From: Agelas oroides
Taxonomy: Eukaryota > Porifera > Demospongiae > Agelasida > Agelasidae
Assembly: GCA_949130485.1 (NCBI GenBank)
Contig: OX422185.1
Span: forward strand, 3,146,304 to 3,210,303
Length of the DNA stretch: 64,000 nt
Direction: 5' to 3'
Shown here piece after piece: positions 8,360 through 62,965 of this stretch. The position numbers and the translations under genes were made by a program. Positions within the stretch are counted from its first letter, which is position 1, and each line of letters begins with the position of its first letter. The notes beneath the pieces were generated by a model. It was not told where the DNA came from and did no database searches. It was given only the letters and a program-made list of their open reading frames with translations.

Positions 8360-8427
8360 AAGTCACCCGCTGCGCAGGACGCGTTTCGGCCAATACCAGG
8401 CCTCATCAGCTGCGCTGGGGTGACTTC
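8360..8427. repeat. Short inverted repeat with GACGCGTTTCGGC
   Basis: AGTCACCCGCTGCGCAGG is answered by CTGCGCTGGGGTGACT about 35 bases later. Between them lies GACGCGTTTCGGCCAATACC followed by GGCCTCATCAG, a motif I recall from dispersed repeats of several animal groups. It can fold into a stem. Confidence 0.5.
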
Positions 8428-10145: not shown

Positions 10146-10256
10146 TTACTACAAGTCATGCGAGAATCCGTATCAGTACTGCAAGTCACGCGAGAATCCG
10201 TATCAGGTACTACAAGTCACGCGAGAATTCGTATCAGGTACTACAAGTCATGTGCG
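10146..10256. repeat. Tandem repeat, about 31 bp, four copies
   Basis: The unit contains TACTACAAGTCACGCGAGAA and ends in CCGTATCAG. Copies differ by single bases (CATGCGAGAATC, CACGCGAGAATT), and the last is partial. Open frames crossing it are by-products of the repeat. Confidence 0.8.
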
Positions 10257-10560
10257 CTGCGTCCGAACGTGCAATGAAATTGAAGGTTTGTATGATAAAA
10301 TCACTATCACCATAGTACCAAGCTATACCGGAAAAATATCACTTGTTTGTTGCCATTGGCATTGCTACTTGTGCTGCGCACTCTCACAATTGAAAACAGT
10401 AGCACAATTATGTGATTATGTACTTAGTCTTTTGTTGACTGTAACTCCGAACCATCGCTTCCAGCATCGTAGACACATATGTGAAGCCTTGAAGCAAACA
10501 CATCAAAATGAAATATATATGTAGAATGTATTATACTATAAATGTATTCCAAATTAAGAG

Positions 10561-10639
10561 AAAACCTCTGAGAAGAGAACAACCTCTCTACAAGGGACAA
10601 ATGGCCTATCCCCAATGTGTCCTTTGTTCGGAGATTTTA
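10561..10639. repeat. Small pogo/Tigger-like inverted repeat, copy 1
   Basis: It begins AAAACCTCTGAGAAGAG and ends TGTTCGGAGATTTTA. A second copy lies at 15540..15620 with the same centre (CAACCTCTCTACAAGGGACA). The AAACCTC...GAGGTTTT ends resemble those of pogo-like elements. About 80 bp, non-coding. Confidence 0.6.
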
Positions 10640-12440: not shown

Positions 12441-12640
12441 GGTGAATTAGAATGGGGCAGTAAGAGTTGGTCTCGAAACAAAATATTTTCTGACAACTTT
12501 GGTTATGTGCTCTACCACTGAACTATGACTATTGGACAACCACCAGCCCTCAAAATCCTCTATAATTATGTATTTGCTGGGTTTGATTCCCGACAGCTGT
12601 TGGCTTCTAACTTTTCGACATTTCCAGCTGAGGCAAAATG
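12441..12640 (-). repeat. Possible tRNA-derived SINE fragment
   Basis: On the minus strand TAGTTCAGTGGTAGAGCA resembles an RNA polymerase III A box. It is followed about 40 bases later by GTTTCGAGACC, a B-box-like motif. The cloverleaf is not intact, so this is a tRNA-like repeat at best and not a tRNA gene. Confidence 0.35.
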
Positions 12641-13241
12641 ATAAAGCAAATAGCCCTGTTCCCAGGCTCACATACGTCAGCCTGGGATTGAGACTAATTA
12701 ATACCTATAGCTAGTACTCTTCAATGTTGCACTGCAATGCACTTGGAAGAAAATATGGGCCAGGGAGAAGTGGATTAGGGGTCAATTAAAGGATAGCAGT
12801 ACACGGTGGCTGTTGCATTAGTGCTTGGCCACACTGTACAGATTCCTACTCAAGAACAACTCGCCATTAGAATCACAAAGTCCACTTTAGCTGGTTCATC
12901 AGCAACTCTGCAATTGCCGAAACATTCAGTAACAGAGAATCATAAAGCTATGTATGAAGGTGTTGGTTGTTCAACGATGAGGGTATCACAAACAGTATAG
13001 CATATCAGGTTGCAGAAATATCCATGTATATGAAAATTGTCTTGGGAGATACAGAAACAGACACATAAAATAGAAGTGCATGGTATCAAATTAACAATTG
13101 CATGGAGGAGATAATTTTATATGCACCATATTTCTTTCAACATGCATACATTATCATTACTTACAAATAATGCATTGACATAATATTATTAGAAATTAAC
13201 TCTTATAGCTACAAACCATGAGATGTTTCTATTTAGCTACA
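12641..13241. other. Stretch without recognised gene
   Basis: A 50-base hairpin with CCCTGTTCCCAGGCT and AGCCTGGGATTGAG lies at 12653-12695 and looks like a tiny relative of the TAGCCTCG family. A plus-strand open frame of 64 codons at 12806 has no recognisable domain. Nothing else is supported. Confidence 0.3.
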
Positions 13242-14112
13242 TCAGCAGTAAACAATGGTTAACAAGTTATGCAAATATGAACATGGAGTATTTTGGAGTA
13301 TTTTGTCAATCTCTTCATGTCTCTCTAGCAACTTGAGCTGCTCATTAAACCTACGAGTTGCTAATGTTTCACTCTTTTCATGAGAAAAGTTGTTTTGCCT
13401 TCTTAACATACTCCATAGCTTCAGAATATTGTTCGTTCCACAAACACAAGTCACAATGAGCATTATAGTAGTTTACTGCATAAAGATTGACCTCACTTGG
13501 CAGCATGTCCAGAGATACTCCATGAAGACATTTCTTGGCTTTCTCAAGATCAAGTTTTGTAGGCCTGTACTCATCTGGTGGAAGCCTATCTGCTATCAGA
13601 AGTGTTCTCAAGTGAAACTTAGCCTTTTCAATACAAAATAAGAAAATGTATGGTTTTTCATAATCCTCCACAAAATTAGCATGTTCAAGGAGTTTGTCAA
13701 AGTCTTCTTCAATGGACTTGTACTTTTCAGCAGATGTGTCTTTTTGCATCACTAGATTACGCCATTTCACCACTGTTTCCCTGTACAGCACAAGAGCTGT
13801 TTCCTTGGAAGGAGCAGCATTACACAATCTTTCCTTTGCTGCTGAGACGTGCTCTAATGCTTCATCATATTCACCTCTACTGTAATACATAGCTGCAAAG
13901 AGTCTGTGGATCATGCCTTGTAAAAGTAAACCATTTTTACATTCAATTGGTGATGCTTTCTCCCAAGCAGCTCTGAGCAGTTTTTCACCATCTTCATATT
14001 GTTCACGAAGAAAAATTTCACTTGAAGCTTCCCAGCACAATGCAAAAGCTTTAAGGTTGGCATCAATATGACTGCTATCAACAATGCTTTGGGCAAGTTG
14101 CATAATCTGCTC
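13242..14112 (-). pseudogene. Gene 2: truncated, frameshifted copy of gene 1 TPR exon
   Basis: This segment is a close copy of the gene 1 TPR exon; long runs are identical, including EQYEDGEKLLRAAWEKA. Homology stops at about 14112, where LINE sequence takes over, so the 5' part with the RYTG motif is missing. Near 13380 a two-base deletion relative to gene 1 changes the frame. The upstream frame then ends KKAKQLFS and the remaining helix (ETLATRRFNEQLKLLERHEE) lies in another frame. No death-domain exon precedes it. The high similarity suggests a recent duplication. It is most likely non-functional unless the deletion is a sequencing error. Confidence 0.85.
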
Positions 14113-15504
14113 AACACTAGCTTGCACCCCTTCGTATACAGCCCCTCACACAAACTAACAAATGATTCTTCCACACCGTATTCCCGCATTTTCCTCCACA
14201 GCCCTTCCCTCCACACTGTATCATATGCTTTACTTACATCCATAAAACCCATCCAGGTACTTTTCTTCTTTCTCTTCCTCAACTCACATGCACCCCTCAA
14301 GATCATAATCTGGTCTGCACACCTCCTTTTTGCCCTGAAACCTCCCTGGGCATCTAGCTGTCAATATATTCTCTTCTGCATACTCTCCCAGCCGAACTAT
14401 CAAAAGCTTTGCCCAAACTTTGGCAACACAGCTTCCCAGTGCAAGGCCTCTGTAGTTGCTTGCACTCTCTGGATCGCCATCCTTAAACAGGGGTATGACA
14501 AAACTACTCTTCCAATCCTGTGGGTATACTTGGATTCTCCTCATTACATTGAACATGCACCTCATATACTTTCCACCATCCTGCTCCCTCCATAAATTAA
14601 CATCTCATTTAGAATTCCATCTGGGCCTGGCGCCTTCCCCCTCTTCAGTGTCTTCGAAACCCTCACCACTTCCTCCCATCCTATCTCTTGGCAGCTCTGG
14701 TTCCTGCTCTGGATCCAAACTATTACAACTCTTCCCTAGCTCCTCCCAATGTTTAGCCAACACCTCCAGAATCTGTTCTGTTTCTTCAACTACTGCTCCG
14801 TCTTTCCCTCTCATCCTTGTGATCCTCCGGTTTTTCTTTTTCCCTCGCAAGTCTGACCAGAATAACTTGCAACTTGGCCCTCCTTGTTCTTTGATTTTCT
14901 GCAACTTGTTCTTCCTATTTTTCTTTTTCTCCTTTCTAATCACCTTCTTCACCTGTCTCCTCTTCTCTCTGTATGTTTACCAGCATTCATTAACTGCCTC
15001 TCCTCTCCTCCTAGCCTGTCTTAGCTGTTTGCAAGCTTCCCTTCTTGTTTGGATTGCTTCCTCCACTTCCTTCGACCACCAACCCTTAGACAGCTCTGAA
15101 ATCCTTTTCTTACCAATCCCTCTTTCCGCTGCTGACATCACCTTTGTTTTCCGTTCTCCCCATACTCTCTCAACTAGTTCTTCTCCTACTTCCCTGATTT
15201 CCACATCTCTCACCCAGGGCTCCCATCCTTGAAATTCCTCCTCAATTGCTTCCTGAAACTCATCCCAGCTGCTTCTCCCATCAACCCTCCACTTGAACCT
15301 TTCTTCTCTCTTCATCTCCTTAGGGTTTCCCGCCTTAAACACACCCCAAACAACATTGTGATCTGACCCTGTATCGATAACCCCCCTGTCTTCTACTACC
15401 ATTTCCACCAACTCATGCCTATGCTCTTGTGGGAATAACATATAGTCAATCACCAATTTCTTGTCTCCACATTCCCAGGTCCACCTTCCCTTACATACAG
15501 GCAT
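14113..15504 (-). mobile_element. LINE fragment: endonuclease end and start of reverse transcriptase
   Basis: The minus strand carries pieces of one non-LTR retrotransposon open frame in order. First is the end of an apurinic-type endonuclease (IDYMLF, then DTGSDHNVVWGVF). A lysine-rich linker follows (WWSKEVEEAIQTRREACKQL). Then comes reverse transcriptase (WKSSFVIPLFKDGD, ASNYRGLALGS, and the first catalytic aspartate motif FMDVSKAYDTVW). Both ends are truncated: the start of the endonuclease and everything after the first catalytic block are missing. The coding pieces lie in more than one frame, so the copy is dead. It abuts the truncated gene 2 exon directly. Confidence 0.85.
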
Positions 15505-15539
15505 TTTTCATCTTTAAGAAATTTCCAATAGGTTTACAC

Positions 15540-15620
15540 GAAAACCTCCGATAAGAGGACAACCTCTCTACAAGGGACAACTGGCCTGTCCCCAATGTGT
15601 CCTTTGTTCGGAGGTTTTAC
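15540..15620. repeat. Small pogo/Tigger-like inverted repeat, copy 2
   Basis: Ends AAAACCTCCGATAAGAGG and GTTCGGAGGTTTTACTGT, with the same centre as 10561..10639. It lies just beyond the 5' end of the LINE fragment. Confidence 0.65.
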
Positions 15621-16006
15621 TGTAACATCATTTGTGGAAGTTGTATGTATATTTGCTTTTTCTAGGCAATTCAAGTGATGAAATCTGGGGCTCAAAATTA
15701 GTGTTATAAAAACATTTTGAAGTGCTAACTGTACATATCACGCCAGACATTGCGGAATTTTCTTTCACTGAGGACAAAAATGTGGAACTGGTAACAGCTA
15801 GTAGGTATATGATGGTGTGCAGTGACAGTATTGACTAATGAAATTACAAAACTTTAGGATCAGAAATTTCAGATCAATTACTGCTACTGATAAACCATAA
15901 AATCAGAACTGGAAGACATGGATTGACTATACTCAAGTATTATAGTATAAGTAAGAGCAGTATGAATCACTATCACTGGGCTAGACTGATACTTTCTCCA
16001 AAATAG
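15621..16006. other. Stretch without recognised gene
   Basis: AT-rich sequence downstream of the gene 3 stop codon. No exon or repeat was recognised. It may contain the 3' untranslated region of gene 3. Confidence 0.3.
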
Positions 16007-17485
16007 TTAGACAATATCAGCATTAGAATATTTCTTGAGTATTTCATCAATTTTCTCATCTCCATTTATTCTTTCTAGCAACTTCAATCGCTGATCAACT
16101 CTGCGCAATGCAACGTTTCTTTTAATTTTCATTTCATCATACATTCTTCTGGCCTTTTCAAGATAGTGCATGGCCTCAGCATATTGTTCTTTCCAGATAT
16201 GCAAGTCATAAACAGTACGATAGTATTTTGCAGTGTAAAAGTTGCTCTGATTTTGCATTGTATCCAATGACACATTCTTCTGCCTTCCTAAGATTGTCAG
16301 GACTGGGCCAGTATTCTTTTGGTGGGAGTTCATCTGTTATCATGTCTGATCTCAAGTGAAATGAAGCTTTCATTGCAAGGAAACTACAAATAGCAGCCTT
16401 TTCATATTCTTCCATGTGTTTTGCATGTTCAAGGAGTAGTTCATATCCTTTTCAACCGTAATTCTGTATGAAGTGCATAAGCTGTTTCATTTGAAGGTGC
16501 AGCATTAAACAACCTTTCCTTTGCTTGTAACATGTACTTCGATGCTTTATCATCATTACCTTGAGAATACTGCATATGTGTCAAGTGCTTTAGAACTCTT
16601 CCTTGTAACAGTAGGCCATTTTGACACTCTAGTGGTGATGCTTTCTCCCAAGCAGTTCTGAGCAATTTTTCAGCTTGTTCATAGTTCTCATTAACAGCCA
16701 CAGACAAAGATTCCCAGCACAGTGCAAAAACTTTGATATCAGTACTGATACTTATTTCACCTAGTATTTGTTTCAAAAGTTGCTGGATCTGCTCATAGTC
16801 AGGTGATAGAAACAATTTTGTGAACAGCGTTTCTAGCTTGTGGTATCGTGTATTTGCGGGCCAGTGTACCTAAGGGGAGGAGGCTCTTTCATCCTTACTA
16901 CTCCATGTCGATCTCTCATCTTCACACCTCCATGTTGATCTCTGTCAAGAATTTGCACATTACAATCACAGTCTTCGGAGTGGTACATATACTCGATCCC
17001 TTCTGAATCCACTATTGAGTGTATTGATATCTGAATGTTACAAGCTGTATCAGGCTGATAAAAACAGAAAGTAAGTAGCAGTTTACCTTGTTTACACGGT
17101 TTGCTTTCCACATGGTACAGAGGGTAAGGGTGAGAACCATGTGCATCATGATATGAAACTCGAACTGCTATGTAGCAGAATAATGTCTTGCGACTGACTT
17201 CTGGAGGTTTCTCACCATGCAACAGTAGTACACAGTCAAGAGGTTGCTGTGTTGCCGTATCCACAACAGTCACAGTGGGAGAAAACTGCTCATCATTCTT
17301 TATCTGTTGTGTGTGACATTCACTTTTGTCTATGGCAAAAACCGTTTGCAGAGGTTGATAGTTCGAAACCATTACCCGAATGTACTGAGGAAGACAGAAA
17401 ATATCTTTAGGATCAGTCATTTCGTGTCCTTTTTCTGGAAGTACTTCAGATTGTTGCTGACTTTCAAGCTTCCTGTATTTTTTGT
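16007..17485 (-). pseudogene. Gene 3, last exon: beta-rich plus TPR-like domain, three lesions
   Basis: The exon starts after TTTCTCCCAG with two bases that complete a codon left open by the exon at 18145..18262. It encodes a charged linker (KKYRKLESQQQSEVLPEKG), then a domain with alternating hydrophobic strands (YIRVMVSNYQPLQTV, PLDCVLLLHGEKPPEV, GKLLLTFCFYQ), then PPPLRYTGP and the TPR-like array. Against genes 4 and 5 there are three breaks: a one-base loss near 16858, loss of about 20 codons with a frame change near 16430, and a small loss near 16280. All three would have to be sequencing errors for the gene to be active. The C-terminal helices (IWKEQYAEAMHYLEKARRMY) are otherwise well preserved. 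Confidence 0.8.
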
Positions 17486-17815
17486 CTGGGAGAAACAGCA
17501 TACATGATATGATATTCATCAAATGCATAACATTTGTGGATGCAGACATAGCTTATGTTTATGACTGCTCTTACCTACCAACTTGACAATGTCATTCTAG
17601 TAATGACAAAACAGAGAATCCAGAGTAGGTAATAAGTAGTTGTGGTGATAGCCATTATGTATACCTAAGTTAGCCCTAACTCCAAAGCTATATGCACCTG
17701 ATGTTACACTTATCAAGCATACACAACATTAATTATTCAGAAAAAGCTGTTTATCTTCTTGGTCAGTAACATAACCTCTACCAGATTTGCGACTGGGTAT
17801 GCTATAATCCAAATG

Positions 17816-40031: not shown

Positions 40032-40286
40032 ACTGTAGCAGAGCTTATAGTATCTGCAATACATAAGGCCAGGCAAACTAGATTTATTGTTTCACACAGG
40101 AGTTCATAACAGTAAGAGTGTGCAACTCCCATATGGTTTCAACACCCACCATAACTGGATAGGATGACGTAGGCAATCAGCAGTGAATATGCTTAGCAGG
40201 TACTTAACATTAAGCCATTCTAGGTGCTAGCTATGTGAAAGCCCACCGCTGTGTTTCACAGCTAAGCATATTCACTGCTGATTGCC

Positions 40287-40420
40287 TAGCCTCGTACCCA
40301 GGCTCCTCCCTACAGAAAAACGGCGAGAGAGCCTGGAAGATCTGATCACGTACCTGTGACGTACTATGCGTGGTTTTGATAATCGAATTATTGCCCACGC
40401 AGTCCGGTCCGTACTCGGTG
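40287..40420. repeat. Left terminal inverted repeat of the MULE
   Basis: Starts TAGCCTCGTACCCAGGCTC and pairs with the complement of 52205 downward. The match runs through TGCCCACGCAGTCC and fades after about 40420. Transposase binding sites are expected here. Confidence 0.88.
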
Positions 40421-40664
40421 GGGATTCGCTTTTTTCACAGCGGTTCATGCGGTCACGTGCGAAGAATAACCCCTACAGCACTACGCTAGCGCTAGAAATA
40501 AACAGGATCTGAGTGCGAATTTACAATGACTGAAAGAGTGGTCACGCAGGACGACGGTGGTAGGAATACCTTGAATGCCAATAGTAAGGTACAAATAAGT
40601 CTTTTTATAACACAAACAATATAAAAGTCTATAACACAAACAATATAAAAGATGTACAGACAAA

Positions 40665-41729
40665 CTATATAATACAGTAGTGATGAACACTTTGGTTGAG
40701 AGGAGGCTCATCTAATGGATAATCTCCATGTTGTGATAAAATACAGTCATAGTGGCATCCTCTGACATTAAGAAGCTCAATGTGGTTTAGACGAGACAGC
40801 TGTTTGGGTGGTGGATCTTGGGATGGAAAAGTAAGCCTATCCCCACGGAGAGGATTATAACGGAACCATTTGTAGGTATTCACATTGGGAATTAGGGTGA
40901 ATACAGGAATTTGAAGGAGCGACGCTGTTGCTAGTATCTCAACTGCTGTGCCCCACACCCTTGTACATCTCATATTAGATAAGTATCTTTCAAAGTCACC
41001 ACCAATGTACGGTCTGAAGCTATCTCGGTTCTGCGAGACAAACTGGACCAATAGCTCACGTACTTTCTCATGGCACATTTCATTGCCATACAACACAAAA
41101 GCAAGGGCACGGAACAAGCAATTTCCATCTCCAGAGATAGGTTTGACTTTGCAATCCCTTGCAGATAGAGAAGCTATTGCTTGCTGAAGAGGATCCTGTG
41201 GATGAATTGAGATCACTCGTATAATATTGGATCCCATGTTTACTGTATGTTTTACACACCTTATCTCCTATCTGCTGTGTAGCTGGAGCAGGCCCTGAGG
41301 TTACAGCAGGCTTCATCTGATGAGATCCTAAGAAGACGATGTATTCAACACAAATAAAAGTGATTCAGCCAGGTATGTTATATCCTTACCTTGTGATTCT
41401 TCCGCAGATGTTAACCCAAGACATCTACGTTTAGCACAGCACTGCTTCAGTGTACCATGTCCCCCAAACTTTGGCTTGTCGAGGCAATATTTGCATTTGC
41501 CACAGTCTGTACAAAGGCATCCTTCACAGGTGCCACAGCGCTTCCTCTTCATCCCTATGATCATAGTTACAGAAGTACGTATGATACTTTGTTGTCTGCT
41601 GTCTCTGCTTGCATAAATCATACCTGTGTGTGGTTTAGTGGGCTCACTCTTCCCTTGTACATTGTCACAGGGGCTTGGCAGACAACCAGTGTCAGACAGA
41701 GAGGTTGATTTGCTGGAGACTGCAAGTGC
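40665..41729 (-). CDS. CXXC zinc finger and OTU protease exons of the MULE
   Basis: Four exons join in phase: 41729..41624, 41554..41390, 41327..41260 and 41195..40665. The second encodes a CXXC zinc finger: KRKRCGTCEGC, CTDCGKCKYCLD, KFGGHGTLKQCC, KRRCLGL. This fold binds unmethylated CpG DNA in DNMT1 and related proteins. The last encodes an OTU cysteine protease with the nucleophile motif GDGNCLFRALAFVLYG and the histidine motif HYDCIL, so catalytic cysteine and histidine are present. OTU enzymes remove ubiquitin. All exons are open. They may be the 3' part of the transposase transcript or a separate gene; the link across 41730..47446 is not resolved. Confidence 0.85.
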
Positions 41730-42127
41730 CTATACAAAGGTATGAACAGATATCTTCATGTTGGATGTGAGTGAATCCTTGTTGTTTGTTGCTTAGCAAC
41801 TAAAACAAGTGAGTAGATGTGATACTGAACTAGCAAGATACTGGCATGAAATACCAGGCCTAGCAAAAAAAGATTTCACTGTAGATGTAAGGAAGACTTT
41901 AGCCACAAGCATGCACCCAGTGTAGATATATGCATACCTTCCACAGCTTGCTGGCTCGAATCCCCAGGGTGGTCCAGGATTGCCATAAAGTGCCAAAGTT
42001 GTCCTTGGGGTATCCCAGGAACAAAGGATGTCCCAGGGACATCCTTGACACCAGACATATTGTGGGACTGCCTCAAAGGTTTAGGGGTGTCCTAGAATCT
42101 TCCATAGATGAGTCTTCCCACCACTGT
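41730..42127. other. Spacer before the minisatellite
   Basis: Inferred intron or spacer of the MULE. Several GTCCCAGGAA and GGGATGTCC-like words near 42000-42120 look like degenerate units of the neighbouring minisatellite. No exon was supported. Confidence 0.4.
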
Positions 42128-43590
42128 CCAAGTTGTCCCTTTCTGTCTGGGACAACTGCAGACATCCCGGGTTAGTCCACTGACCAAGTTACCCCCCAAA
42201 GTCCCAGGTCCAAGTTGTCCCTCTCTGTCTGGGACAACTGCAGACATCCCGGGTTAGTCCACTGACCAAGTTACCCCCCAAAGTCCCAGGTCCGAGTTGT
42301 CCCTTCTGTCTGGGACGGCTGCAGGTATCCTTGGTTAGTCCACTGACCAAGTTACCCCCCAAAGTCCCAGGTCCAACTTGTCCCTTCTGTCCGGGACAAC
42401 TGGAGACATCCCGGGTTAGTCCACTGACCAAGTTACCTCCCAAAGTCCCAGGTCCAAGTTGTCCCTTCTGTCCGGGACAGCTGCAGGTATCCCGGGTTAG
42501 TCCACTGACCAAGTTACCCCCCGAAGTCCCAGGTCCAAGTTGTCCCTTCTGCCCGGGACAACTGGAGACATCCCGGGTTAGTCCACTGACCAAGTTACCC
42601 CCCAAAGTCCCAGGTCCGAGTTGTCCCTTCTGTCCGGGACAACTGGAGACATCCCGGGTTAGTCCACTGACCAAGTTACCCCCCAAAGTCCCAGGTCCGA
42701 GTTGTCCCTTCTGTCCGGGACAACTGGAGACATCCCGGGTTAGTCCACTGACCAAGTTACCCCCCAAAGTCCCAGGTCCGAGTTGTCCCTTCTGTCCGGG
42801 ACAACTGGAGACATCCCGGGTTAGTCCACTGACCAAGTTACCCCCCAAAGTCCCAGGTCCGAGTTGTCCCTTCTGTCCGGGACAACTGGAGACATCCTGG
42901 GTTAGTCCACTGACCAAGTTACCCCCAAAGTCCTAGGTCCAAGTTGTCCCTTCTGTCCGGGACAACTGGAGACATCCCGGGTTAGTCCACTGACCAAGTT
43001 ACCCCCCAAAGTCCCAGGTCCGAGTTGTCCCTTCTGTCCGGGACAACTGCAGACATCCCGGGTTAGTCCACTGACCAAGTTACCCCCCAAAGTCCCAGGT
43101 CCGAGTTGTCCCTTCTGTCCGGGACAACTGCAGACATCCCGGGTTAGTCCACTGACCAAGTTACCCCCCAAAGTCCCAGGTCCGAGTTGTCCCTTCTGTC
43201 CGGGACGGCTGCAGGTATCCCGGGTTAGTCCACTGACCAAGTTACCCCCCAAAGTCCCAGGTCCAAGTTGTCCCTTCTGCCCGGGACAACTGGAGACATC
43301 CCGGGTTAGTCCACTGACCAAGTTACCCCCCAAAGTCCCAGGTCCGAGTTGTCCCTTCTGTCCGGGACAACTGGAGACATCCCGGGTTAGTCCACTGACC
43401 AAGTTACCCCCCAAAGTCCCAGGTCCGAGTTGTCCCTTCTGTCCGGGACAACTGCAGACATCCCGGGTTAGTCCACTGACCAAGTTACCCCCCAAAGTCC
43501 CAGGTCCGAGTTGTCCCTTCTGTCCGGGACAACTAGAGACATCCCGGGTTAGTCCAATGACCAAGTTACCCCCCAAAGTCCCCAGTCCAT
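42128..43590. repeat. 81-bp minisatellite, about 18 copies
   Basis: The unit includes TTGTCCCTTCTGTCCGGGAC, CATCCCGGGTTAGTCCACTG and ACCAAGTTACCCCCCAAAGT. Because 81 is a multiple of three, long open frames of 200-240 codons appear on both strands. They repeat a 27-residue unit (minus strand: GQKGQLGPGTLGGNLVSG) and are not convincing genes. Units differ by a few substitutions, with variants such as CTGCAGGTATCC recurring in spaced copies, which suggests multi-unit duplications. It lies inside the MULE. Confidence 0.95.
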
Positions 43591-45132
43591 ATGTACACAT
43601 TCATTCTGCAGCAGTACATGTGATTTGATTATTAAGAGTTTATTGATGTAGAACAAATTTAGTGGTTAAATAACAGAATTGGAGGAAGAATCAGTGTTGG
43701 ATGGTAATTAGAAGTGGTTTATTGTTTATTAATGATAGAAAATCAGATAAATGCTGATCTATATTATGCTGGATGATAATGAGAGAAGTTGTTAAATACC
43801 AGAATTAGAAAGTATAAATACTGGTCTAGATTAATGAGTTGTGGTGGATGAGGATAAATGAGAAGTGGTTACCCAAGCTGTCCTTTAAAGGGTTTTTCTT
43901 GGACTTCTGCGAGGGGGACTTGTGGTTGGGCCTAATTTGAACCCCTTTGTGGGCGTTCCATGCTCACCATGTTGTACTGGTCTCTTTGTACCCATGGGAG
44001 AGGATTAACAAAGTTAATCCTACACATGTACTTCCTCACATCAGTGAAATACATGGAATCCTGGGACTTATTTAATTTCCTGCTGAAGGAGAATGCGGGT
44101 GAATTGCATTAGTGATATGTTGTACTTCCCCAGTTTCCTAAGCAGCTCCAACTTGTCTTGTTGGTCTGTTGGGATCTGGACCTTCTCAAATTTGTATTGC
44201 TGCAAGGGGTGAACTGGTGATCACAGCTGGCAACACGACATTGAGTAATATCCAATCACCCATACATGTGTCAAATGAGCTGGAATTCCAGTATCAAGTA
44301 AGCTGGAATCCCAGTATCAAGTACCATATAGCTCCAAATTTTTGTGGTTCAAAAATTTTGTGAATGTCTCCAAATTAGCGTCGAAGTAAATTTTCATGAT
44401 ATAAATTTCGTGATCACTTTAAATTTGGTGATTCAATGTTGCCCCACCCATTTTTCAGCAAGGGCACTATATAGGCCACCTCGTGACACGTGTTTACATA
44501 TAGCATTACACCTTTGGTGTGCATTTTGTAGTAGTGTATGTACATGCATGGGTAACATGTACATATGCTAGAGTGCATGGTCAAAGGTGGTGCATGGGGG
44601 TATATATGTATGGCATATACTCTCTGCAGTTGCAGGAGTATATGCTGAAGTCAGGGGTGTAAACACCAATTAATGGTGAGTTTATACAGCAAGAGCCAGA
44701 GCTAGCAATATGACCAATTTGTATTTGACGAGTCTTTGCTGCCACTGCTAGCAGGACTGGGAGGTTGCGAGTTCTACTGACAGCTTGTAGTAATTGTTGC
44801 ATGATGGTCAGCCTCTGAGAATGGCTAGGTAGCAAGCTAGCTGGCCGTTGGCATCATGGCTAAGTGTCAGCAAGCATCTTGGTTTCCAGTTGACATGATC
44901 GAAAGACCCTTCGTCTGACTCCACCTTGACTACAGGGATATTTTGGGTATGCTTTAGTTGCCTAAGCGTACTCAAATTCATCCTTTTCCAGTCAACACAC
45001 CAACACTAGCTATGTGGATTCAAAATTCAAAAATGCAATGGAAACCATTCGGCTCAGGGTATATCTACTGGAAACTTCCTCCAACTTCGGTCTCGGGCAG
45101 TAGATGTATACCCACCATACATACCTCCTTAT
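43591..45132. other. Interior MULE sequence without recognised gene
   Basis: AT-richer sequence between the minisatellite and the MITE at 45133. A stretch at 44328-44440 (AGCTCCAAATTTTTGTGG, then AATTTCGTGATCAC) looks like a dispersed repeat. No exon with domain content was found on either strand. Confidence 0.35.
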
Positions 45133-45387
45133 CACTGTAAAAACAGATTGGTTGTTTTAACTGGAGAGTGGTTACCCTGGTTGCATGGTTTACTTTGGTA
45201 CTATAGACCAATTGTATAAGACAACCAGTTTCCTTGTTGTTTCTTCCTCTTTTCTTTGTTCTGAAATAAGGAAAAGTGGAGGAAACGAGGAAACTACTTC
45301 TCTGGTTGTTCTTTACAATTACCAAACTAAGACATGAAATCAGGGTAACCACTCTGTGGTTAAAACAACCAATCTGTTTTTACAGTG
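45133..45387. mobile_element. CACTGTAAAA MITE, copy 4, inside the MULE
   Basis: The ends CACTGTAAAAACAGATTGG and CCAATCTGTTTTTACAGTG are inverted and followed inward by GTTGTTTTAAC in both arms. 255 bp, non-coding. It inserted into the MULE interior. Confidence 0.85.
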
Positions 45388-45413
45388 AATTACAATGGTA
45401 TATATATAACACA

Positions 45414-45904
45414 TACCATATTGTCCCGGGAAAGCACCCAAAAGCGCTTGCAGCTCAAGCACAAAAAATGGGGGTGGGCAGTGAATTATCTCCATGTAAG
45501 CGCCCACCTTGGATCTGAAGTTAGCTGACAGGACTACCGAATTGACCTGCATTGTCCGTGCTTTCTTGTTTTTTTTTTTTTTTAGCCAAACAAGGCCAGC
45601 GCAGCATGGAGTAAGCTGTATCGTGTTAGAAAATGGACCAACCCGCGTTTGTCGCTTGCAGTAAGCACATTTCGTACTGCAAGTGAACAACGCTGAGGAC
45701 GAGGCTATGACTGGTGTGTGCAAACCTTGCTACCAGATGTAGTGGCGCCCGAAGCTCATCAGAATGATCGCAGGTATGTACGCGAGCTCAGCGGCAATAC
45801 CAACTGTGAACTTTTGAGTCATTTTCAGGTTACACGGAGGACCACGTAAAACCACCAGAACAGTCAAAATTGGGGAGTGGGTGCTTGCCCGGGACAATAT
45901 GGTA
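45414..45904. mobile_element. MITE with TACCATATTGTCCCGGG ends
   Basis: The left end TACCATATTGTCCCGGGAAA is matched by GCCCGGGACAATATGGTA at the right, with AGCACCCA in both arms. A poly-T run of about 15 lies at 45570. About 491 bp, non-coding. Confidence 0.82.
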
Positions 45905-46814
45905 CAGCAAGTGTAGTTTCATTGCAGCCAGTAGTATGTGGTATGCAGATGAAACAGTAACCCTTGCTTATTTTACAGTGTATGTAGTTGTTAAGTGTCA
46001 ATAAACCAGTGCTTGCATGGACAAGCAGGACAAAGACAAGGGTAACTGACAGGACATGCACATTCCTACTGCCTGAAGCAGAGAATGGTACTAATCTTTG
46101 GCCACATCCTTGCTTCCCAAAAGACTTGTCTACAAGCTACATGTACACAAAGTGATTCACCTGATTGACACCTCTATATCACCACCTCCACACTCCCCTT
46201 CTGTGTGATCATTGCTGTCTGTTTGCATCACACTCTCGCAAAGTTGATTGCAGCTTTCATTGCAGCATCACTGACATCATTTGAGAAGCTAACTTCTTCA
46301 GACAAAATCTGACACCACAGTCAATCCAACTTGCAAACACTGAGATTGTCGTTGACAAACTCCACATGGCTGGGCACACAGACACATTGTGCCATCAACA
46401 CTGTGACCCCAAATCTTTCAAGGAGTTAATGATGTGTGTTACATACTGTGATCTGATATTATTGTTCAAGCCTAATCTACCATTTATATAGGTTGATACC
46501 GAAAGGAGTTACATAATATATGTGATCAGATATTACTATGCAAACCTAATCATAGGTTGACACCGAAGTGTGTGATCAACACTTCTCGTGGCTTTCAAAG
46601 TATGCCAGGATGACCCGACATATGAGCCGCATGTTCTTCATTCTGCACATTGTGGACATGCATAGCAGGCAGGAAGAGTGCAAGCTCCGTAGAGGAGGAT
46701 TCACTTCTTTAACCTAATCAACTTATAAATAGCTAGCTTTCATTCTTGCCTACATTTAGCTACTTGCACAGAGAGCATTTCCTACTGTTTATGTCTCAAC
46801 TGTGGCTGTTTCTG
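45905..46814. other. Interior MULE sequence with a local duplication
   Basis: Two diverged copies of a segment of about 70 bp (TGTGATCTGATATTATTGTT and TGTGATCAGATATTACTATG, each followed by AGGTTGA and ACCGAA) lie at 46447-46570. No exon was recognised. Confidence 0.4.
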
Positions 46815-47395
46815 AACCTGGGACTGGCAGGGTGGTGTAAGATAGTGGGAGGTCCCCGGGATGTCCCAGGTTGTCCCATGGCAACTTGGGACAACTAACT
46901 GGCAGGCTGGTGTAAGGTAGTGGGAGGTTCCCGGGATGTCCTGGGATGTCCCATGGCAACTTGGGACAACTGACTGGCAGGGTGGTGTAAGGTAGTGGGA
47001 GGTTCCCGGGATGTCCCGGGATGTCCCGGGATGTCCAATGGCAACTTGGGACAACTCGGACCTGGGACTGGCAGGGTGGTGTAAGGTAGTGGGAGGTTCC
47101 CGGGATGTCCCGGGATGTCCCATGGCAACTTGGGACAACTGGGACCTGGGACTGGCAGCTGGGTGGTGTAAAGTAGTAGGAGGTTCCTGGGATGTCCCGG
47201 GATGTCCCTTGGCAACTTGGGACAACTGGGACCTGGGACTGGCAGGGTGGTGTAAGGTAGTGGGAGGTTCCTGGGACGTCCCATGGCAACTTGGGACAAC
47301 TCGGACCTGGGACTGGCAGGGTGGTGTAAGGTAGTGGGAGGTTCCCGGGATGTTCCGGGTTGTCCCATGGCAACTTGGGACAACTGGGACTTAAT
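46815..47395. repeat. Second minisatellite of the MULE, about seven copies
   Basis: Units of about 77-96 bp contain CTGGCAGGGTGGTGTAAGGT, GTGGGAGGTTCCCGGGATGT and CCATGGCAACTTGGGACAAC. Units vary in the number of GGGATGTCCC blocks. The words GGGACAACT and GGGATGTCC are shared with the 81-bp minisatellite. Open frames in all reading frames are by-products of the repeat. Confidence 0.9.
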
Positions 47396-47446
47396 ACTAA
47401 GTACAACTAGGAATATCCCATGCATTCCCAATGGCCTAAGATGTAC

Positions 47447-50400
47447 TTAGTACAACTTTGACATTTTATGGCAGTCCTGGACATTTGTGCGAATCCCAAC
47501 ACGATTCCTGAACTTGGAGTTCATTCTTTTTCGTCCATGTCTCTTGGGATTTGGTAGGGAACCATATCCAAGTTTCAGCTTTGAAGAGATTGACTTGTAT
47601 TTCTTCTTTGTGCGAAGTGCTTGTTTTTGTGTTTGGGTAGCTGTCAAAAGGAGTCCATCCTGAGAAGGAAGTTTCTCTTGGAACATCTCAGTGATGTCAT
47701 GTATCAATGACTGCAAGTTCATCAACATTTCTGCATCTGTACACACATATGACAATGTTTCGAGTCTTTTGAGCGCAATGCGAACCTTCTGATCGGCTTT
47801 CTCCACACTAACAGACCTTGCCTGGGGTGAAAGGTGAGCACCATACAGACATGTTATCAGCAACATTTTTATGTCATAATAATCATCAAACTATCATAAA
47901 GATGGCATTTTCAATCAAACATGTAAAAGGACATACCTGAACATGACCGGCAATACCAACAATTAAATGTTTGTGCTGTTTGCCCACACAAATTACTACC
48001 TCCAGCCAGCCCAATTTTAACATACACAAAATCATAATGATGTACATGTACATTATAACACATACTTTAACTTGCAGATTTTGTGTAGACTGTTGTATCA
48101 GTTCAGCATTATGGACATCGTTGTCATCATTCAGATTGAGAACAGGAGATCCATCAAAATGCTTCTTCAGAGCCTCAACATCAGTTGATAAGTATGGGCT
48201 GTGAAGATAGCTCGGTGGTAGGTTACTCCACTGCCATGCTGACCTGTGCTTGAAGATGGCGAAAAAGTGTTTACACGGTATGTGCCAATTTGTCCAGTCT
48301 TGACATGTGCATGAGGGCATAGAATCTGGGTTGTCATTGCCAAAGCTGACTCTGTATTTAGCACCAGATGATTTCATAATTTCAAATATTCCCTTCTCCT
48401 GATCATTGTCAATAATGTTACTGGCTGTGAGCTTGTGGCTTCTTGCCATCCTGTCAAGACAATGCAGAATGATGTTTCTGGGTCTGTCCCGGAGGTAATC
48501 AGGCACAAAGTCATTGTAGGTTCGGTACATAGATGTTTGTTTATAGTTTTGCAGCAAGTACTTTTGATAGGCTGTTGGCAAGTAGTCTTCAACAAGTAGA
48601 GTTGTGATGGCAGAGACAGTTGCCCTCTGTTTGTTGTGAGGAAGGAAGTTGTACTTGAAGAGCTTATTCTGAGCTTCTATGCTGTTGTTTGTATTGACGG
48701 CAGCATGGTACACAGAATCACGATAGGCATGTGCCCATCTCTGCAACATGAATGGATACAATCAAGGTAGAATTTGGTTTACACTAATGACCATGCATGT
48801 CCCTGGGTTTTGTCCACCTATAAGAAAACCCAAGGAGAGCCCATAGAACCTTGTGCTCTAACACATAACACTAGATATGGAGCTTTTGTCTCCATGGTAA
48901 CATGTTTACATTGCTACTGGTTTGCTAATTGGTATGTGGTCAAGAAGCCAGCCACATAATTACATTCATATGCACATCATGTAGGTACCTTAGCCTCGTA
49001 CCCCGGCCGTTAATTAGGAAAAACGGCCTGGCAACTTCTCCGAGTTCAAACTGTTGACTTCCGCTGCACTGGAGTTGTCAGTACCAATCAGATTTCAGAA
49101 CACTTCACGTGACAGTTGTACAGAATTTTAATTGCGTCATAAATGCATCACAGTATTAATATACCCGTCCCGTGGTACCGCTAGCGCTTGGAATGACGCT
49201 TTTGTTCGAACTCCTTCCGTTGACTTGTGTGCAACAACTACAGTGCCTGCGGACAAAACGGATTCTTTATAAAAAAGGACCAGTTCGAGAGTAGCAGTGT
49301 CAGGTACTAGTTTAGTACTTACTGTCAGTCGGACACATCGACATCGGTGAGCAAGAGCGAGTCTACTGCAAGCAGTTCGTCTACAGATGACAAGTAAGAC
49401 AGTAACCATCCAATATAAGCCTGTAACGAGTCTACTGGCAACAACAACGCGCTTGCACAATTACGAACAGTCACGTGGCTACGATTAAATATCACATGCA
49501 TTATCCAATATTCATGGCTTGTATGGGTGCAGCTGTAATCTTTTTGACGTCACATCCGTATACAGTTTGAACCCGGGTAAGTTGCCAGGCCGTTTTTCCT
49601 AATTAACGGCCTGGGTACGAGGCTAGTAGGTACCTGTGATATGGAAAGCCATGTTGTTGATAACCACTGCTGGACACATGGGTGATCTTTCCACACCTTT
49701 GAATGTTTGAGGTGCCGTACTGATTCTTCGTAGCAGATGCCAATATTTTCACCCTCTTTTCCAGGTGGTGCCCATGCACAAGCCCGCAGCTCAGCCAGGA
49801 GTTGGTCCGCTTCCTCTGATGTCAGGCCATGTTTCCCATCTTTGGCCCACCTTTCCCATGCCTGTTCACGATGGAAGTCACAGAGGTAAACGATTGTGTC
49901 TGGAAAACAGCATTCAAGAGCAGATATCTCAGCATCTGAGTAATCACACATCCAAAACTTTGGATTCCATTCTGGATTCCAGCAATGTAGAATATGCAGT
50001 GCCTCAGAGATGCTTTCTGTACTTTCTGATTCCAGAATAAATTCTGCAACAACAGAGTAGCCAACATTGGTACGAACGCACACAAAGAATAGTGGAAGCT
50101 CATATCTTGTGGTTTTATGTGTAGCATCAATTAGGGAAATGGTGTTCCCATACTTCAAAATTAGGTCTTTTTGCCATTTTTGCTGGTGAATCCAGAGAAA
50201 CGAGTTTTCCTGTGACTGTTTAGCTGTAGGGCCATCAACTTCACCTTCTTTTTTACTTTCAGCAGCAGTGCTGTTGCAGTCACTGTCAATGCAGCGTGGA
50301 CGGAAGAAGTTTGCATCAGGATGAGTTTTCTTCCAGTTGAGGACCTTTAGTCTGAGGTTTTCTTGGTCGTATTTTGAATGTTGTAGAGCTTGTTTTGCTC

Positions 50401-51283
50401 TGTATATATGATTCCTCAAGTCATCATGTGTTGGGAAGTATGCTCAATCATTTGGGTCTGGTGGGGAATCTTTGCAGAGGTAGTGGTTGATGCGATGTCG
50501 AAGTGACTTTTTCACATCATCAATTTCAGTAATACCATCTGCAACTAACTCAGCTATCATTTGAGCTACAGCTGGGTTAACCTTCTGTGAGAAAACTGCA
50601 GCCTGTTTCACTGGGTGCGCTTTCTCATGTGCCTCTACTGTTGGCAAAGATAACCAGTATCTTGTCGTCTGCTTGATGCATCCAGATTCGATTTCATTCT
50701 GCAATTTCTTCAGTGTTTGTTCCTTTAGGAGTCGCAGGTTGTATTTGCTCTTCCCCTCAATATCATCAGGGTGTATAGCATACTCTGGGAATAGAGTGTA
50801 GTGTTTGACGACAACATGTGCAGGGCATCCAATTTTACGTGTGCTTTGCAAACGTAATTGTTTTCCTTTCTTTGGTTTGGATTTATAGTACTGAGGACCA
50901 TACTGGCATTGGAGATGCTGGCTGTCTCCTACAATAAAGGGTGTATTTCCAAACTCCACTGTAGTATTCCCTTGTTTGTAACTCCAGTATATTCTGGGCT
51001 GAGGTTTCTGTAAAAAATTAACACCATATGTACTGGCTAGTATTCAATCTACATGTACAACTGTACCTTTCTGCCATCTTGAGTTTCATCATTCTCCTTG
51101 TGCTCTAGCTGTGAGTGACATCTCCTGCTGGAATTACGCACACCGAAAGATGTGACTGTCTCCTTGTAGTATTCCTCCAAGACTGCTGGTGCATCATTGA
51201 CAAAGCCTTCAAAGTACAGTCCAACTTGATGCAAACCTGCATCCCACCTTGGAGCCATCTCTGATACTTGTGCACACATGCCA
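47447..51283 (-). CDS. MULE transposase with CaRF-like and SWIM domains
   Basis: Exons 51283..51067, 51007..49634, 48740..48066 and 47821..about 47447 join in phase. Domains in order: a CaRF/ALS2CR8-like region (TPFIVGDSQHLQCQYGPQYY, STRKIGCPAHVVVKHYTLFP); the MULE catalytic core (SLIDATHKTTRYELPLFF, WMCDYSDAEISAL, LCDFHREQAWERW); a helical stretch (AVNTNNSIEAQNKLFKYNFL); a SWIM zinc finger CTCQDWTNWHIPCKHFF; and a basic tail (NPKRHGRKRMNSKFRNR). The core cuts and pastes the element and SWIM probably binds DNA. The frame has one TGA at 50444-50446 where the domain continues on both sides (PPDPND then AYFPTHDDL). CGA to TGA by CpG decay would explain it. The first exon is unclear. Confidence 0.87.
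48991..49625. mobile_element. TAGCCTCG-family MITE in a transposase intron
   Basis: The ends TAGCCTCGTACCCCGGCC and GGCCTGGGTACGAGGCTA lead inverted arms of about 60 bases that include TTAATTAGGAAAAACGGCCT. A 10-bp duplication GTAGGTACCT lies at 48981-48990 and 49626-49635. It is 635 bp and carries no transposase. The duplication spans the GT donor of the second transposase exon, and the donor copy next to the exon is retained. Confidence 0.9.
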
Positions 51284-52044
51284 CTGCATACCAAAGAATT
51301 TTAATCAATTGTATGCCCAGACGAATGTTTGCATTACATGTTATAGTGTCATTGATGCTATTTACGTTCCACATGTAAGAGAATGATTTCTAGTCTGTCC
51401 ATCAATACATACCTGGTGGTCAACTTAACAGTCAGCGAGCACACCGGATCTGTTGGAACTTGCCGCCAGTGCAGTGTTACATACCGGGTTAAACTTGGTA
51501 AGTGCGCACGTGACCACATGAACCGCTGGTGAAAAAAGCGAATCCCGTACTCAGTGGCAGTGCTGACACGACACGGCCGTTGTTGTATGTCGCTGAGACT
51601 ACAGATCGGCACTGAAAGACTGTTTCACTATTTCTAGCTAGACTCAAGCTCCTAGTATGATATTTCAAGTATAGCTTCTGCTGCAGCGCCAAGTTTTACG
51701 CTACCACGACGTTGTTTCGTTCAAATGGCGCAGGAGGCAGTCGCCTTATCGACGTTGACAGCGTTGGCTGTCGCTCACTATGTCAGCAAAGAGTCTTTGG
51801 AATGCCTCTGTGAACAGTTGTGAGTTGTGAATACTCCTGGCGTGCTGTCATAGTGAGCGGTAGCCAGCGCTGTGAATGTCGCTAAAGCGACTATCTTCTA
51901 GCGCCGTTTGGGCAGAATAGCGATGTGTAGAGTAGAAGCTACACTGCTTACCAGCTAGCTAGATAACACTGAAACAGCCTTCCAGTGCCCATCTGTAGTC
52001 TCAGCGACATCTACTGATCCAGAACTCCAATAACAGCACAAGTA
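51284..52044. other. 5' region of the MULE
   Basis: Expected to hold the promoter and first exon of the transposase. Short open frames at 51358-51692 (minus) have no recognised domain. Around 51735-51900 inverted words such as GACGTTGACAGCGTTGGCTG and CCAGCGCTGTGAATGTCGC form a weak stem. No TATA box could be assigned. Confidence 0.35.
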
Positions 52045-52205
52045 CCGCTTAGTATAGTACGGACTGCGTGGGCAATAATTCGATTATCAAAACCACGCAT
52101 AAAACCACGCATAAAACCACGCATAGTACGTCACGGGGCACGTGATCAGATCTACCAGGCTCTCTCCCCGTTTTTTTGTAGGGGAAGAGCCTGGGTACGA
52201 GGCTA
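52045..52205. repeat. Right terminal inverted repeat of the MULE
   Basis: Complement of the left repeat, ending GAGCCTGGGTACGAGGCTA. It contains three tandem copies of AAACCACGCATA where the left end has one, so this side is about 24 bp longer. Confidence 0.88.
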
Positions 52206-52490
52206 CTGATTGCCTACGTCATCCTATCCAGATGGCTGGTATAGAAACCATATGGGAGTTGCACACTCTTACTGTTATGAACTCTCGTTTCGCATCAGCC
52301 ACTTTCTCGATTTGCATGCGGGCGGGCGGGCGGTCATTATTCATTACTAGCAAATGCTAGGCAAATCTACGGCGCTACGGCCATTGAAAGTGGGCGTGTC
52401 ATTGCTTGGAAGGCGATAATGACAGCTGAGGTGGCAGGTCTCAGAGGAAGTGGGCGCTGATGCGAAACAGTAAATCTAGTTTGCCTGGCC

Positions 52491-52804
52491 TAATCTCAAA
52501 ACGATAGCTGGAGGACACGCTATACATCAGTAAGCTATTTTATCGACCACGGTAGTCATTTCCCATACATTTTGTACGGAGAACGAGGAAGAGCTGACTC
52601 CCAGGGGGGCGTGGCAGTAATCACGTGATCCTATAGTGCAAATCGAGATTGCTCAGCGTCAAATTCTCAACTTACCCCCACTTTTCCATACTAATCCCAT
52701 ACTAATCCCATACTAGGGGTAGTGGGGGATAACATGGATATGTGCATTAGAACTACCATCTCTATTCAGTGTAGCTTACCAAGAACTGTAGTGTCATCCA
52801 CGCC
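52491..52804. other. Flank right of the foldback MITE
   Basis: Contains AATCACGTGATCCTATAGTG (52619-52638), inverted relative to 38541-38562. CCCATACTAATCCCATACTA is a short tandem repeat at 52689-52712. No gene. Confidence 0.4.
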
Positions 52805-60851: not shown

Positions 60852-61873
60852 TTACATTTCACCAAATGTTGTTATAGCAGTATCATAATCCTTGTGCATT
60901 TCATGACCTTTTACTTTTTCTAGCAATTCAATTTGCTGAACAACTCTGTCCAATGGATTGTTTTGTTTTACTTCCATTTCATCATACAGTTTTCTGGCCT
61001 TTTTAAGATAGCACATGGCCTGAGAGTATTGCTCAAAGTGCTTCCATATATGCAAGTCACCACAAGTGCGATAGTATCGTGCTGTATAAGAGGTTTTCTG
61101 ACTTGGCATTATATCCAGTGACACTCCATTGAGGCATTCCTCTGCCTTCCTAAGATCTTCAGGACTGGGCCAGTATTCTTTTGGTGGAAGTTTATCTGTT
61201 ATCAAGTCAGATCTCAAGTGAAATGAAGCTTTCATCGAAAAGAAATTAAAAACGACAGGTTTTTCATAATATTCCATGAACTTTGCATGTTCAAGGAGTA
61301 GTTCATATTCTTTCTCAATTGACATATACAGTTCACAAGAAAATGGTTCATGTTTGTCATAAAGTGTATGCCTTTTTATTCGTAATTCTGTATACAGAGC
61401 CAAAGCTGTTTCATTTGAAGGTGCAGCATTTGACAACTTTTCCTTTGCCTGTGACATGTACTCCAATGCCTTATCATTATGACCCTGCACATACTGAAAA
61501 TGTGCAAAATGCCTTAGAACTCTTCCTTGTAAAAGTAATTTATTCTCACACTCTGGTTGTAATGCTTTCTCCAAAGCACTTTCCAACAATCTTTCAGCTG
61601 GTTCATAGTTTTTATGAACAGCCTCAGACAAGGCCTGCCAGCACAATGCAAACACTTTGATATCAGCACTGATACTATTGTCATCAAGTGTTTGTTGGGA
61701 AAGTTTTTGCAGTTGCTCATACTCATCAGACAGATACAGTTTTGTGAACTGACTTTCTAGCTCATGGTATTTTTGAGTTGTTAATGAGCCAGTATACCTA
61801 AGAAGAGCAGAATCTTTCTCAGTTTCTATTCCCTCCTGATCGTTATACCGAGGCGACTTTCTGGCACTGTGAT
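60852..61873 (-). CDS. Gene 5, TPR-like exon
   Basis: After AAATCCTCAG the exon starts with two bases of a codon, the same phase as the TPR exons of genes 1 and 3. It encodes about 340 residues: a polar linker (DHSARKSPRYNDQEG), LLRYTGSLTTQKYHELESQF, then the helical array (NYEPAERLLESALEKALQPE, LPPKEYWPSPEDLRKAEECL, YSQAMCYLKKARKLYDEMEV). Like gene 1 it lacks the beta-rich domain. It has no internal stop. It ends ITTFGEM, then TAA; an alternative donor GAAAT|GTAAGC overlaps the stop. Death-domain exons would lie upstream but none was seen before the window ends, though 2.1 kb remain. Confidence 0.85.
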
Positions 61874-62965
61874 CTGAGGATTTAGAACACACCTACCATT
61901 CACATACTAGGTAGCTAGAAGGGATGAGCTAGATACATGATTAGTGTGGAGTATTATGGCTATGCAGCCTGAAAAATAATGACCACTGCATCAAAAGCTT
62001 ACAGAATGAAACATTCAAAGATCAGTCATGCGCCTTTGGGAGACTATTCTTGAGTGTCATACGAAGAAGTTTGTGATCATTTGCTGAAAATAGCACCTTT
62101 ACACCATTGGAGCAGTTAGGAAATTAGTACCATGTCAAAGTATTTTTTTCTGAAATAACTCCCTCCTGTGACAAGATATCAATTTTTCCAAGACACCACT
62201 GAATTCATCCATGCAAGTTTCATGCTACTACTTTGCTCCATCTTTGGGCCGTTAGCATCACTATACAATTGACTGTAAATACTTTAGTAGGGAGAAGTCA
62301 CACTTCAACATTTACCCATGTGGAACTCAAATTTTAAATAAAATCCAGAAATTTCCAACAACGTAGGCCAACACGTGAGGATTCTGTTGATATACAGTTT
62401 GCCTAGTTGCTTCATTCCTTCTGTCGGCCGATGAGTTACAAGTGACCATACTAATATCACCAACTTCCGCTTCCGTGATTTGGGGCTATCATAGCATGTT
62501 GTTGGCCCCATGCTGTTGGCCCCAGTCTGTTGGGCGGTGGGAAGAGTATGCTGAGATGATGGCCATGGAAGAGACTGTTTTCTACTAAGCAGATTGCTGA
62601 AATAGTATGCCTAAGTTCGTCTAGTACTGCCTACAGTTACGTATCTGCATCTAGCAGCTTACCTGGCGATTGATTCTGGAGTTTAATGATTACATATCCC
62701 ACCTAGTATAGTTTTGCCTATACAACAGGTGGGGATTTACTGTGATAATTTCCCTCCCTGAGGGCTACAAAGGAAATTATGGCTCATAATTCCCTCTCTA
62801 TGTATTTTTAGTTTACAGTCCACTACATTGTCAGACTATAGTACAGATTTTACATCATTTTACTGTGACAGTAAATAATGTTGAAGTTACTGTAAACACT
62901 TGCACATGTACAGATGTGTTTACAATAATAACAACAAAGGACCAATCAGGTGGGATATATAATAA
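61874..62965. other. Upstream of gene 5, no exon recognised
   Basis: No death-domain exon was found here on the minus strand. GTTGGCCCCATGCTGTTGGC and CCCCAGTCTGTTGG near 62503-62530 form a short direct repeat. GGAAATTATGGCTCATAATTCC near 62772-62794 is a short stem. Confidence 0.3.

Follow-up and report, generated by a model that had tools for sequence, protein, structure and literature searches.

It has long been asked how DNA transposons come to choose promoters and escape silenced DNA, and a locus of the demosponge Agelas oroides raises the matter in concrete form: does a Mutator-like element (MULE) carry, in its own transposase, a zinc finger that reads unmethylated CpG? The locus lies in a stretch of 64,000 nucleotides (assembly GCA_949130485.1, contig OX422185.1, positions 3,146,304 to 3,210,303; C3:3146304-3210303), which was analysed as a whole and is called the window; positions refer to it unless a contig is named. 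We read the MULE in the window as a degraded copy of a Mutator-like family, the transposase of which is most likely one multi-exon protein with ALS2CR8 (CaRF-like), MULE, SWIM, CXXC and OTU modules in that order and with a CXXC finger that would read unmethylated CpG, and we give this reading a probability of about 0.6. Its basis in the sequence is the modules, their order, their recurrence in close copies and in diverged families, 10-bp target duplications, conserved motifs and the CpG pattern; the joining of the exons into one protein is the most likely interpretation.

Copies of the element were searched for in the whole genome (259 Mb, 141 contigs). In eight other copies with a readable 3' end (L032-L034, L036, L037, L039-L041), homology on the OTU side stops at window positions 40419-40421, and the 5' end that matches this limit is 51546. 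Between these limits the MULE is 11,126 bp long in the window and about 4.95 kb long in undisturbed copies. It has the characters by which the MULE superfamily is recognised, namely a DDE domain, terminal inverted repeats and a target duplication of 8-11 bp, here 10 bp. One undisturbed copy of 4951 bp (C1:21931732-21936682, hereafter C1) yields nine predicted exons with GT/AG borders, and all eight junctions are in phase, giving a predicted protein of 1198 aa with ALS2CR8 at residues 107-315, MULE at 401-488, CXXC at 945-989 and OTU at 1044-1121. The exons of the window copy were placed by hand from C1, and the element reads as follows.

40421-51546, minus strand (transposase gene): the MULE proper, with ends GGGATTCGC...GCGAATCCC, where homology with other copies stops
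51505-51546, minus strand: 5' terminal inverted repeat, about 42 bp, inverted partner of 40421-40461
40421-40461, minus strand: 3' terminal inverted repeat, about 41 bp
51547-51556: target-site duplication on the 5' side, gtactcagtg, identical to the other side at 9 of 10 positions; other copies have 10-bp duplications
40411-40420: target-site duplication on the 3' side, gtactcggtg, again 10 bp as in other copies
51413-51519, minus strand: possible exon 1, with its start within the inverted repeat; no other part of the gene model is as uncertain
51067-51283, minus strand: predicted exon 2, mapped by hand from C1
49634-51007, minus strand: predicted exon 3, with the ALS2CR8 and MULE catalytic domains and an in-frame TGA at 50444-50446
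48066-48740, minus strand: predicted exon 4, with the end of the MULE catalytic region and the SWIM motif
47490-47821, minus strand: first part of predicted exon 5, the remainder (41938-41956) being separated by an insertion
41624-41729, minus strand: predicted exon 6
41390-41554, minus strand: predicted exon 7, a CXXC zinc finger with KFGG (Pfam 8.1e-14)
41260-41327, minus strand: predicted exon 8
40665-41195, minus strand: predicted exon 9, an OTU cysteine protease with its D/C/H residues present

Eleven copies retain the 3' repeat together with 5'-end sequence (partial at the 5' end in copy C6); their end-to-end distances run from 4811 to 11,587 bp, with 7 of the 11 within 4.8-5.2 kb. In C1 the first 41 bases of the two ends are identical, and this 41-bp repeat holds four CpG. 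The target duplication was at least 8/10 identical in all nine copies examined, a comparison that excludes C15 and C6: it was perfect in five (C20, C2b, C3b, C2a and C9), 9/10 in C1, C3a and the window, and 8/10 in C10. The C9 duplication was judged by eye, the script having misplaced the end, and C2b, which has two tandem 3' ends, was scored at the outer one. Locus L036 (C2:11980681-11980802) shows two tandem MULE 3' inverted repeats 81 bp apart, the outer one with a perfect 10-bp duplication.

The initial annotation had reported minus-strand exons for five modules. Four of them exceed the Pfam cut-offs in the open reading frames (ORFs) of the window, namely OTU (2.9e-14), zf-CXXC (8.1e-14), MULE (PF10551, 2.5e-10) and ALS2CR8 (1e-22). 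SWIM, a finger that many but not all MULEs carry on the C-terminal side of the catalytic domain, stays below its cut-off (16.8 bits against 19.6, E 0.0049) and was not listed for the full C1 protein, though a C-x-C-x9-C-x-H motif, which we take to be the SWIM rule, is visible in the region. In 40 aligned MULE homologues, drawn from the 120 listed, D340 of protein P0001 was invariant and D279 was kept in at least 90%; these two residues and a glutamate in exon 4, assigned by eye, are presumably the catalytic acids. The pairing of ALS2CR8 with MULE is ordinary, since ALS2CR8 was also found in 103 of the 120 MULE-exon homologues among the matches listed (511 in all in the protein collection).

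The CXXC finger has its closest solved structures in DNMT1 (7.8e-14), followed by KMT2A/B, KDM2 and CFP1. It shares with the fingers of DNMT1, KMT2A/B, KDM2A/B and CFP1 the eight zinc cysteines and the KFGG-type motif, a combination that marks the CXXC type binding unmethylated CpG; it differs from them in its context, as they are host chromatin proteins and not transposases. In CXXC rows from 29 of 30 OTU loci the FGG core was mostly kept (FSG in L055, YGG in L056, cut short in L057), and some loci lose single cysteines or have stops. The OTU domain was modelled with a predicted local distance difference test score of 88, and its nearest structure was OTUD1 (template-modelling scores 0.70/0.82), then OTUD3 and OTUD5. 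The predicted fold and the Asp/Cys/His catalytic residues are common to the element and to these three proteins, which are host deubiquitinases only 19-25% identical to it by structure alignment; the model is consistent with an active deubiquitinase. The initial annotation had proposed that OTU may shield the element's proteins from ubiquitin-dependent turnover, a role that such an enzyme might have. Of the 30 OTU loci aligned (two being pieces of one copy), 26 keep D, C and H. The other four were L042 (D and C outside the alignment), L051 (Q for H), L054 (H outside) and L057 (Y for C). Since third positions are near saturation between families, differences by codon position were used in place of the ratio of non-synonymous to synonymous substitution. 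Among six representatives of different families they were highest at third positions in both OTU (0.50/0.38/0.66) and CXXC (0.31/0.32/0.57), and third positions also led in the L046-L054 group (85/78/114 and 22/50/62).

All 11 loci with close MULE matches (at least 91%, window included) also carry close CXXC and OTU, therefore their joint presence is no accident of one locus. At a further locus, C6:2038687, CXXC is accompanied by part of OTU but by no close MULE match, and another (C8:5914080) is a 97-bp fragment of the MULE 5' end with none of the modules. Genome-wide, the order MULE, CXXC, OTU on one strand was found at 42 of 85 OTU matches (CXXC within 3 kb and MULE within 10.5 kb upstream). 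Taken singly, CXXC lay upstream within 3 kb at 58/85 and MULE lay upstream at 47/85; on the wrong, downstream side they were neighbours at 0/85 and 3/85, and chance would give 0.04 and 0.20 neighbours, respectively. The order was counted with 114 of 135 MULE rows, as the other 21 have matches confined to query residues 244-297, a part in which the window frame enters the nested miniature inverted-repeat transposable element (MITE), and a few OTU loci are present as two rows. CXXC was not nearby at 27 of the 85 OTU matches, some of which are probably host genes. A local accident or chimera was thus rejected. The initial annotation had named as its signs copies that end before the OTU or CXXC exons, or a 9-bp duplication lacking at other loci: none of the 11 close copies ends before these exons, and the 9-bp duplication is not that of the MULE, whose own is 10 bp.

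The CpG content bears on what the finger may do. The window as a whole is like a methylated genome, with an observed/expected ratio (o/e) of 0.47 for CpG and 1.30 for TpG+CpA. In C1 the CpG o/e is 0.30 in the middle and reaches 0.86 and 1.07 in the 250 bp at either end; likewise, for all 17 3' ends compared, from five families, the ratio is 0.62-1.48 over the final 200 bp and 0.18-0.46 farther in. The 100 bp outside these ends hold on average 5.76 CpG (n=17; 6.1 in 8 close copies, 5.4 in 9 relatives). The average was 2.12 per 100 bp across 1,426 background windows; with GC content matched it was 3.37 (P 0.0002 against the MULE flanks), one GC-matched pool holding just 7 windows. Beside the ends of a family of MITEs the value was 1.33 (n=24), and MULE 3' flanks were higher (Mann-Whitney 3e-6); 28 of 29 MITE loci were entered, and some of the 24 readable ends are two sides of one element. 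The 17 flanks come from the 30 OTU loci L031-L060. Loci with the 3' end absent, disturbed or unrecognised were omitted (L035, L038, L042, L043, L046, L048, L050, L051, L054 and L056-L058; L043 is the same copy as L041), and the window (L031) is reported apart, with 10 CpG in its 3' flank of MITE DNA. The few 5' flanks seen had 4 (C1), 5 (L011), 6 (L019) and 5 (window) CpG. Away from the 3' end the enrichment declines to 3.3 at 700-1000 bp. It looks as if the element body was once methylated, and the ends and landing sites were not. The initial annotation had proposed that the element may target or recognise unmethylated DNA, which the CpG-rich insertion flanks and CpG-retaining ends support, CXXC as the cause being unproven.

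These flanks fit a CXXC-guided recognition of unmethylated DNA, and the pattern suggests that the MULE may choose where to land by sensing DNA methylation. The CXXC finger would tether the transposase to unmethylated CpG DNA; the tethered enzyme would then cut, insert or both at unmethylated sites, that is, at its own CpG-bearing ends and at promoter-like targets, while the OTU domain would strip ubiquitin from the transposase or from local chromatin. Polycomb, which has a CXXC protein of its own in KDM2B, uses it to place a ubiquitin mark on histone H2A at CpG islands, and by analogy with this biology the OTU target could perhaps be that mark. The full version, in which CXXC steers integration towards CpG-rich DNA free of methylation and lets only unmethylated ends be used, and OTU deubiquitinates there, opening the landing site, is offered tentatively, the odds being somewhat against it.

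Several points weigh against our reading. The window's close copies lack a third-position bias (OTU 34/45/18, CXXC 27/34/0), as is expected of recent relics, and several copies contain stops. The CpG enrichment is regional, since the nearest 100 bp do not significantly exceed those at 600-700 bp (5.76 against 5.24, p 0.32); two of the eight close-copy flanks have just 3 and 1 CpG. Nine of the 17 flanks come from relatives, 3' flanks alone were systematically covered, and the background consists of the window and MITE neighbourhoods and is not a random sample of the genome. Retention of insertions near CpG-rich genes could also differ from insertion preference. Maize Mu, finally, is not known to carry a CXXC. 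CpG-rich flanks may need no such finger, because Mu too favours open chromatin and the starts of transcription for its insertions (PMC2774946, PMC7337890).

The last point leads to the main rival to CXXC guidance, a general MULE preference for promoters: the MULE-CXXC-OTU element would be real, its CpG-rich sites would reflect a habit of MULEs to enter promoters or open chromatin, and the finger would act only on the element's own ends, which do retain CpG, or have some other role. The preference of Mu speaks for it, as does the report that promoters of the sponge Ephydatia are demethylated and that its CpGs are more frequent around transcription starts (PMC7385117). Against it, the flanks of two other MULE-bearing repeats, L016 and L026, have 1-4 CpG per 100 bp, in four flanks of elements whose class is unclear; apart from these two, L001-L030 gave no clear set of CXXC-less MULEs with readable ends as a control. 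We consider this explanation unlikely, but it is the strongest competitor.

Another possibility is that the MULE, CXXC and OTU parts are separate proteins of one element, made from several genes or alternative transcripts, with no fusion. Two sequences, P0142 and P0143 (38% and 35% identity; P0143 represents 13 sequences), are single ORFs with CXXC and OTU together and no MULE, though a single exon would look alike. This explanation is made rather improbable by the eight predicted junctions, all of which keep phase in the natural copy C1, and by a phase-1 acceptor seen by eye directly before the CXXC exon in three of six families, those in which it was judged (L037, L047 and L056).

The proposal that CXXC and OTU are functionless captured host fragments, like the cargo of Pack-MULEs, is largely refuted and has very little probability left: MULEs do tend to take up host gene fragments (PMC6446971) and the window copy is itself broken, but the shared order extends to families with OTU 35-47% identical, the zinc and catalytic residues are conserved with a codon-position bias between families, and P0142 and P0143, which may come from the same species, carry the CXXC-OTU pair as well. 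Searches for further relatives gave no match for the OTU exon among viral contigs and none for the SWIM exon among plasmids; a full-length search with the CXXC-OTU region returned only two nematode USP-OTU proteins.

The description of the locus in the initial annotation as a nearly complete 11.9-kb MULE with long inverted ends at 40287 and 52205 and a perfect 9-bp duplication, CTGATTGCC, is refuted: the ends and the duplication exist, but they belong to a host MITE, since MULE copies stop at 40421/51546 and the outer pieces form that MITE. The 11.9-kb figure includes this host MITE, a 5.5-kb insertion and a nested 0.6-kb MITE. Around and within the MULE the following lie.

40287-40420: left piece of the host MITE entered by the MULE, recognised from end-to-end MITE loci and the search from 40287
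51557-52205: right piece of the host MITE, recognised from MITE loci spanning the joined flanks
40278-40286: 9-bp duplication CTGATTGCC of the host MITE (not of the MULE), left copy
52206-52214: 9-bp duplication CTGATTGCC of the host MITE, right copy
41965-47489: later insertion in exon 5, 5.5 kb, possibly hAT-like, with two minisatellites and imperfect inverted ends
48991-49625: nested MITE in intron 3, with ends as in the outer MITE and a 10-bp duplication

Joined by script, the two outer pieces make a 783-bp MITE, and 13 of 29 MITE loci give alignments that reach both of its ends; they represent 11 distinct elements, as two pairs of loci overlap, and these copies are 724-762 bp long. From the sequence, the MULE landed inside this MITE, and uninterrupted MITEs are seen; the exact empty site is not resolved base by base, because the stretch of 31 positions at the junction is short by 4-25 in the end-to-end loci. 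The initial annotation had proposed to find further full copies from the two ends. The 194 bases from 40287 have at least 42 genome matches (40 of 340 candidates scored), and only the window's own passes base 123. Positions 40287-52205 were thus rejected as the ends of the MULE.

The window MULE copy is probably dead, because it has the in-frame stop in exon 3, where C1 reads on; it is also inflated by the 5.5-kb insertion and the second MITE. The insertion is flanked by an 8-bp duplication, CGAATCCC, at 41957-41964 and 47490-47497, is absent from all 11 other copies examined, and is possibly hAT-like, judged by the resemblance of its imperfect CA...TG inverted ends. Both minisatellites lie inside it, one of about 18 units of 81 bp and a second array of about 74-87 bp units; the two arrays have short words in common in inverse orientation. 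The outer and the nested MITE belong to one TAGCCTCGTACCC-ended family with at least tens of copies, their duplications being 9 bp and 10 bp. The outer MITE itself lies within a further inverted repeat (40063-40197, 52203-52494), with arms such as 40100-40152/52232-52284 and a hairpin at 40170-40197/40261-40288, several elements being nested at the locus.

At other loci, sequence just past the homology end of L046 and L050 (about 2153, minus orientation) looks like the inverted repeat of a different CXXC-OTU family (GGGATCCACTTTGTTCACC); here an element of one such family apparently went into the end of another's. Beyond the element end at L037, the C1 locus, an adjoining ORF has a GDVETNPGP stretch, which we take to be a 2A-like motif, perhaps of a retrotransposon. 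Elsewhere in the window, minus-strand ORFs at 504-17552 and 60855-61892 show weak, sub-cut-off TPR matches, with a Death domain at 2008-2487, and are possibly an immune-type gene cluster. Wnt genes were recovered from the genome at three well-matched loci, with one more weak match; together with the Death-domain ORF they mark the DNA as animal, and a set of three Wnt loci would suit a sponge. An Rfam scan of the window gave no match.

An OTU part in an animal MULE is already known: MuDR-6_HM, a Hydra MULE of Repbase (group 14 of Dupeyron et al. 2019), is listed with 'Ovarian Tumour Gene' (PMC6446971). It differs in that its listing gives no inverted repeats, zinc finger or target duplication, and that text does not mention CXXC. 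Ginger1 resembles the window MULE in joining a DDE transposase to a C-terminal protease, OTU or Ulp1, but its transposase is of the Gypsy-integrase type; the MULEs of plants, hydra and lancelet that carry a de-conjugating cysteine protease have an Ulp1/SUMO type and not OTU, and in the accessible part of the source CXXC is mentioned for neither (PMC2836005). OTU is also reported from Helitrons (PMC2836005). The main texts of a 2026 arthropod MULE survey (PMC13359780) and of PMC10027918 contain neither CXXC nor OTU, and no CXXC transposase was announced in open-access titles and abstract openings, a search that lay outside Repbase, subscription journals and preprints. New here are CpG-depleted bodies with CpG-keeping ends, and CpG-rich 3' insertion flanks.

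Proteases for ubiquitin or SUMO turn up repeatedly in DNA transposons, as in Ginger1, Helitrons and other MULEs (PMC2836005), and the OTU fusion extends this link. A methylation-sensitive CpG reader within a transposase would, if true, be a direct and testable answer to the question of how such elements choose their sites, in an animal whose genome is CpG-depleted and apparently methylated, and it would offer a natural design for guiding insertions to DNA that is not methylated.

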